NCBI GenBank assembly: GCA_905221605.1
Contig: CAJNDS010002124.1
Span: 248,496-312,495 of the forward strand
Origin: Symbiodinium natans
Taxonomy: Eukaryota; Sar; Dinophyceae; Suessiales; Symbiodiniaceae
Reading direction: 5' to 3'
DNA: 64,000 bases
The notes beneath the pieces are model-generated. The model was not told the DNA's origin. It saw nothing but the letters and a program-made list of their open reading frames with translations, and made no database searches. Every line of letters starts with the position of its first letter. Within the stretch, counting starts at the first letter, position 1. Positions 50,890-51,168 of this stretch are shown here, in pieces. The position numbers and the translations under genes are program-made.

Positions 50890-51168
50890 TGCGGAGCTGC
50901 AATTGGTATTGTAGAAAGGAGTTAGTGTTGGAAGTTGAAAGGGTTAATGAACCCGTAAACCATGTTTGGCTCAAGGATGGCCAGTCCGTCCAAAGAAAAA
51001 AGTCCGTGTTTGGGAGTGAGGGTTGGGTTAGTGCCCCTCTACTTGTGTAAGGGTGCCCCTTCCTTGTTGCTCTTATCCGTGTTCTTGGTTGTTTCTTGGT
51101 TCGATCTGGGAAATATAAGTTCAGGGCGATTAGGGGAGTTGATTTCCTTCCTTGGTTGTCCCCCCGTA
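50890..51168 (+). repeat. 5' LTR
   Basis: 279 bp, TG...TA ends, matches 59417-59695 at all but one position. Contains a spliced-leader-like stretch at 50953-50975 and a short open frame from the ATG at 50976 encoding a hydrophobic segment (SLLLLSVFLVVSWF). Confidence 0.93.
50953..50975 (+). other. Spliced-leader-like sequence in 5' LTR
   Basis: CCGTA, two bases, then CCATGTTTGGCTCAAG. The dinoflagellate spliced leader is CCGTA, one base, then CCATTTTGGCTCAAG (from memory). An ATG follows two bases later (GGATGGCC). A second copy is at 59480-59502. Confidence 0.7.

Follow-up and report, generated by a model that had tools for sequence, protein, structure and literature searches.

A spliced-leader-like block at a module junction in the LTRs of a telomere-repeat-targeted retrotransposon family of Symbiodinium natans

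The DNA that we analysed, hereafter the window, is a 64-kb stretch of the Symbiodinium natans genome that holds an LTR element at positions 50890-59695, all features of which lie on the + strand. Repeat comparison delimits two direct LTRs of 279 nt each (5′ LTR, 50890..51168; 3′ LTR, 59417..59695), which start with TG, end with TA, and differ by a single mismatch at LTR position 140; the 5′ boundaries were consistent with those of 20 further LTR pairs that we fetched. On either side of the element the sequence reads CCCTA (50885..50889, inside a CCCTAAA array, and 59696..59700). Within a repeat, such a target-site duplication is ambiguous when taken alone, and 19 of the 20 other pairs displayed a 5-bp duplication in the same phase, the degenerate CAGGG and TGGGG included. 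The primer-binding site (PBS), GGTTATGAGCCCAAATTAGG (51169..51188), abuts the 5′ LTR and presumably is of the half initiator-tRNA type known from Drosophila copia. A polypurine tract, AGGACAGGGGGAG (59404..59416), abuts the 3′ LTR on its 5′ side. Direct terminal repeats, a PBS with a polypurine tract, and a short target-site duplication of fixed length identify the element as an LTR retrotransposon.

Three long open frames, each measured from stop to stop, fill the interior. The first (51188..55279) has matches to CCCH zinc fingers, Torus, and MLLE; the second (55065..57524) has no Pfam match at E up to 1 and 27 relatives among public proteins; and the third (57479..58813) again contains CCCH zinc fingers. 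By eye, the first frame also resembles WW and S1 domains, neither of which Pfam reported. Public relatives, for example P0001 and P0004, extend across the borders of the three frames, which indicates a break of the reading frame in the window copy. Pfam at E up to 1 detected neither a reverse transcriptase nor an integrase in the three frames, so that the window element is at most a non-autonomous member of the LTR retrotransposons, and the family as a whole looks non-autonomous. As no pol gene was found in these frames, the Ty1/copia order of integrase before reverse transcriptase does not appear in them, and we assign no superfamily. The window as a whole yielded no tRNA and no Rfam family. 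It does hold other tandem arrays, at 28953-30142 and 11056-11510, whose units measure roughly 54 nt and 23 nt (families D14 and D15).

At LTR positions 64-86 lies a block, CCGTAAACCATGTTTGGCTCAAG (50953..50975), that resembles the dinoflagellate spliced leader, DinoSL (CCGTAGCCATTTTGGCTCAAG). The first-pass annotation had reported this likeness in both LTRs and proposed aligning it to DinoSL; both LTRs, with their one difference, do carry the block (50953-50975 and 59480-59502), and the alignment spans the whole block, with a single substitution and two extra bases, at a local score of 32, the next-best DinoSL match elsewhere in the window scoring 24. The last 11 bases of DinoSL are matched exactly and the 5′ half is altered. 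The same annotation had placed GGATGG after the block, which was off by one base: CTCAAG is followed by GATGG, the extra G being the last G of the leader counted twice. Of 1932 sequences of 64 kb simulated from the element interior, 1 attained a score of 32, with a Gumbel estimate of 0.0026 per 64 kb on both strands, or about 1e-5 per LTR; none of 40 sequences simulated with a first-order model of the window did so (best score, 30). The 11-base core TTTGGCTCAAG, with at most one mismatch, occurred four times in the window versus 2.1 expected, and 13 of 100 shuffles reached four; alone, this short core is no rarer in the window than chance. Whether such a match is mere background, as the first reading had asked, has a divided answer: the full block is rare and the core with up to one mismatch is not. 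A scan of IMG/VR for the block end followed by GATGG gave no matches. The conservation of the block end in other LTRs (87 of 89 in the PBS-based sample described below) is stronger evidence against chance than the match in the window.

The genome of the window (759 Mb, 2543 contigs) contains 205 exact copies of DinoSL, with none for the reversed control. We examined 40 of these copies (42 rows minus the two duplicates L021 and L022). Five of them read SL|GTACAAATCGGG, three of the five having been sampled from an evenly spaced array on contig C479, and a sixth similar copy has GC instead of GT; from their sequence, these copies look like SL RNA genes. Copies of this type lie on contigs C479 and C1538, with steps of about 3.8 kb on C479. 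Truncated leader repeats follow the canonical copy at L024, L074, and partly L082, and truncated tandem repeats of this kind are described, in the available parts of the reports, as a mark of retroposed trans-spliced mRNAs (PMC6050394, PMC7245778, PMC3229502). Together, these copies show that the canonical leader is present, suggest a host of dinoflagellate type, and support the view that its genome holds and re-integrates DinoSL. The element's PBS was found within 900 nt downstream of none of the 40 canonical copies examined out of the 205. In IMG/VR, exact DinoSL was present on a single contig (L001), AT-rich and giant-virus-like, with two copies on the minus strand at 2746-2766 and 2893-2913, 147 bp apart; 46 bp downstream of one of them lies the ATG of a GC-richer 254-aa frame. 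These copies may come from a host cDNA that was captured with its SL tag, or may be a leader mimic of the virus.

Searching the genome for the block with up to two mismatches returned 279 places (control, 0), and from 100 listed among these we chose 20 LTR pairs, in which the block is present by selection. Nine pairs belong to subfamily A, like the window element, and 11 to subfamily B, in which a different 98-nt cassette takes the place of the 90-nt cassette of the window element. The insertions are young, as the two LTRs of a pair differed by 0-2 substitutions and, in one pair (L031/L030), also by a 30-column gap. Variants in the 5′ half of the block (CCGG, AATC, GTATGG, and a common C-to-T) were present in both LTRs of an element, the exception being L031/L030, where one base of the 5′ half differs between the LTRs. 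This pattern indicates that the 5′ half is templated by the element itself, and that the block is inherited via the element's own RNA with no fresh overwriting by a whole leader. The canonical whole leader occurred in none of the 40 paired LTRs. Within-element differences (14 located with the pair L058/L059 left out, against a per-pair sum of 15) never fell inside the last nine bases of the block, TGGCTCAAG (50967..50975 in the window), which equal the last nine bases of DinoSL. Copying back of a whole leader at every cycle was rejected for the 20 pairs examined, because variants of the 5′ half are inherited by both LTRs.

As a guard against circularity, we also sampled relatives independently of the block, by the LTR end plus PBS plus 4 nt with up to three mismatches, which gave 790 places in the genome (control, 0). 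Ninety were sampled from 100 listed, all exact matches; among these 100, four were omitted as their LTRs were already represented, and six more were not taken. An LTR of 206 to 311 nt was present at 89 of the 90 places, with none at L147, and three LTRs are shared with the paired set (L097/L032, L106/L035, L119/L031). The nine bases TGGCTCAAG were exact in 87 of the 89 LTRs, and the canonical whole leader was found in none of the 89. The two exceptions, L111 and L157, carry one substitution each in the nine-mer, and each has a partner LTR with an intact nine-mer and no other difference; the changes are most simply read as mutations after insertion, two cases being few. In the 88-LTR set defined by the rule GGCTC[AC]AG (L157 in, L111 and L147 out), the nine-mer ends at LTR position 81-90, and at 86 in 58 of them. 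That the block might be private to the window element is ruled out by these counts. The first-pass annotation had proposed conservation in related LTRs as a check, and it holds for the last nine bases, the 5′ half being variable.

Across 19 representatives, one per LTR module combination, nine columns were invariant, and the flanking stretches averaged 0.4-0.8 bits; also invariant or nearly so were an upstream column at −13 and the LTR ends. Because the representatives were drawn from LTRs matching GGCTC[AC]AG, the invariance rests on the count of 87 of 89. A constraint arising merely from the LTRs being copies of each other was rejected, as the nine columns stay invariant across 19 module combinations. 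The 12 bases upstream of the nine-mer resemble the 5′ part of the leader to a degree equalled by 17 of 4000 scrambles and 8 of 4000 random 12-mers, the likeness being strong in L119, L097, L107, and L139 and weak in 8 of the 19 representatives. This DNA test superseded a back-translation test of the leader 5′ half on 26 protein relatives, the result of which was weak. Open frames of such LTRs also occur in the protein database, where TTGGCTCAAG is encodable by 36 of 50, with three reading frames represented, compared to 7.25% of shuffled proteins; one of the 36 (P0037) has the place outside the block.

The family inserts into telomeric repeats. The window element and all 20 pairs lie inside TTTAGGG/CCCTAAA arrays, in one phase and in both orientations, and 82 of 88 PBS-sampled 5′ flanks pass a strict telomere-repeat rule, most of the remaining six resembling degenerate repeats. 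Counted as exact arrays with a minimum length of 12-14 nt, such repeats cover 14-16% of the window, scattered throughout, and exact 12-mer targets make up 0.68% of its positions; set against these fractions, the insertion pattern amounts to target specificity. To our knowledge, insertion into telomeric repeats is a behavior mainly of non-LTR elements, and a family at one phase of TTTAGGG would be an LTR case of it. Our searches of a partial collection of open-licence literature listed no account of telomere-repeat insertion by LTR elements.

The 3′ end of the block coincides with a boundary between exchangeable LTR modules. When the window LTR (subfamily A) is compared with that of L048 (subfamily B), the two are identical at positions 1-86 and again from 177 to the end, through the PBS, and the cassettes in between (90 nt, 50976..51065, in the window element, and 98 nt in L048) have only short patches in common. 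The first break between A and B falls exactly at the end of the leader-like block. Overall, A and B are 92-96% identical for three B loci, with the differing cassette included. We propose that the cassette corresponds to the R region and that the 3′ part common to both subfamilies (51066..51168, identical between the window element and L048) corresponds to U5, labels that would follow from the reading developed below. Among the 88 LTRs, six different cassettes occur with U3 cluster 0, and a given cassette can likewise occur with more than one U3 cluster, namely two for cassette 6 and three for cassette 8; the cassette clusters share descent and hence are not independent. The bases 3′ of the block, (G)ATGGC, are partly common to several cassettes. 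That the block ends at a module junction is as expected if the 5′ ends of element RNAs lie there. At L129, the junction reads GGCTCAAGGCTCAAGGATGG, a doubling of seven bases that is present in both LTRs and so predates the insertion. A doubled junction, GGCTCAAGGCTCAAG, occurs in the L129 LTRs and after a canonical SL in L088, and is allowed by peptides P0045 and P0061; it may mark a misregistered strand transfer.

In LTR replication, the cDNA of the RNA 5′ end must move to the 3′ LTR via base pairing. If the host replaces that 5′ end with the spliced leader, the cDNA will end in leader sequence, and the 3′ LTR must then contain leader sequence in order to receive it. The conservation of the block, its position, the junction at its end, and its inheritance are direct observations, from which we infer trans-splicing of the element RNA, a role in strand transfer, and the U3/R labels. 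On balance, it seems to us an even call whether the block is the leader-derived U3/R border of this telomere-repeat-targeted LTR family and serves as a landing pad for first-strand transfer. In such a scheme, DinoSL would be trans-spliced onto the element RNA at the AG that ends the block, yielding an RNA whose 5′ end consists of leader, cassette, and U5. Reverse transcription from the PBS would proceed through U5 and the cassette into the leader, copying its last bases at least, after which the cDNA end could pair with the identical TGGCTCAAG in the 3′ LTR (the block copy at 59480..59502, identical to the 5′ copy and the putative receiver of leader-ended cDNA), with synthesis proceeding into U3. 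The leader 3′ end would be kept identical either through selection for pairing or through being copied, and the old LTR would serve as template for the 5′ half of the block, which could then drift. As family RNAs with different cassettes would have the leader in common, transfers between families would swap cassettes at the leader 3′ end.

Two features point to the landing-pad reading: the block is identical, and not complementary, to the leader, as pairing with leader cDNA would require, and a nine-mer retained at the site of module exchange is what a leader-ended strand transfer predicts. The fuller statement, that DinoSL acts as the element's 5′ repeat, that the nine-base LTR copy lets strong-stop cDNA switch strands, and that families sharing the pad exchange R/U5 cassettes, we hold with somewhat less confidence than its opposite. 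Several observations count against a landing pad. Copying of the full 5′ end should sometimes leave a whole leader, and it was found in none of the 89 PBS-sampled and none of the 40 paired LTRs; the upstream likeness is weak in 8 of 19 representatives; retention of the nine-mer is explicable by purifying selection on any function; mutated nine-mers are few, only L111 and L157; and the (G)ATGGC common to several cassettes raises the possibility of a longer conserved motif with a different function at this site. The tie between the spliced leader and the retrotransposon that was drawn at first pass is upheld by the 205 host copies, by the nine bases in 87 of 89 LTRs, and by the block end at the module junction, and is not upheld as regards the copying back of a whole leader.

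The chief rival, which we consider unlikely though the least so of the alternatives, holds that the block is an SL fossil acting only as acceptor: trans-splicing at its AG would make translatable mRNA, and the packaged RNA would be unspliced, starting upstream of or in the block. Inheritance of the block through the element's own RNA would suit this reading, as would the reported behavior of Cer1 of C. elegans in the available passages (PMC3315495). An acceptor, however, requires an AG and not identity with the last nine bases of the leader, and module exchange exactly at the block end would be left unexplained. Considerably less probable is an accidental resemblance to DinoSL of a promoter or initiator motif of this LTR class. 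The (G)ATGGC shared 3′ of the block by several cassettes, the weakly leader-like 5′ half in 8 of 19 representatives, and the core that is not rare in the window are all compatible with chance, but a full-block match arose in only 1 of 1932 simulations, the nine invariant bases are exactly the leader 3′ end with added likeness upstream, and the block ends at the module junction. We give little credence to a leader relic acting as the source of a TTT(G)-type promoter motif, a role put forward for the DinoSL relics of retrogenes in the parts of the reports at hand (PMC6050394, PMC12014239), given that the invariant part is TGGCTCAAG and the T run just upstream varies (ATGG, CTGG, GTGG). Copying of the whole leader into R at every cycle, as suggested at first pass, would account for a leader-like block in both LTRs and for an invariant leader end but is highly improbable, since all pairs with 0-2 substitutions have non-canonical blocks, variants of the 5′ half stand in both LTRs, and canonical leaders number 0 of 89 and 0 of 40.

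The landing-pad reading can be set beside several known systems. Copia-type LTR retrotransposons are primed by a half initiator tRNA, and the window element is like them in the half-tRNA-type reading of its PBS, its 5-bp duplication, and its short LTR, and unlike them in having no detected pol, its superfamily thus not being shown. SLACS, CRE, and NeSL are retrotransposons that insert into spliced-leader RNA genes and so likewise link a retrotransposon to the spliced leader, but these elements target the leader gene, whereas the window element contains a leader-like sequence and targets TTTAGGG. The DinoSL relics of dinoflagellate retrogenes are described, in the available parts of the reports, as genomic copies that arose via trans-spliced RNA and reverse transcription (PMC6050394, PMC7245778, PMC3229502), and truncated tandem leader copies also occur in the genome of the window. 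Those relics are tags on retroposed genes; here, in contrast, each of the two LTRs of a replicating element family contains a variant leader, which has a constant location and an invariant 3′ end. Cer1 of C. elegans is, similarly, an LTR retrotransposon in a trans-splicing host, which carries SL1 on its spliced mRNA and none on its long RNA; the available Cer1 passages, unlike the case of the window element, mention no leader sequence in the LTR (PMC3315495). SART1 and TRAS1 of the silkworm are described, in the passages available, as non-LTR elements targeted to telomeric repeats (PMC7265360, PMC2868851); the window family shares this target but is made up of LTR elements with a PBS and a 5-bp duplication, and it occupies interstitial arrays in either orientation. 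An account that joins spliced leaders to LTR-element strand transfer did not appear in the partial open-licence literature that we searched.

Hosts that trans-splice their RNAs pose a specific problem to LTR elements, as the piece of RNA that is replaced is the very one required for first-strand transfer. If the landing-pad reading is true, an LTR that contains a pad derived from the leader would solve this problem directly. This reading predicts that the RNA 5′ end, the site of strand transfer, and the site of module exchange coincide at one AG. If it is true, the SL-tagged retrogenes of such genomes would be tied to the reverse-transcription pathway of LTR elements.
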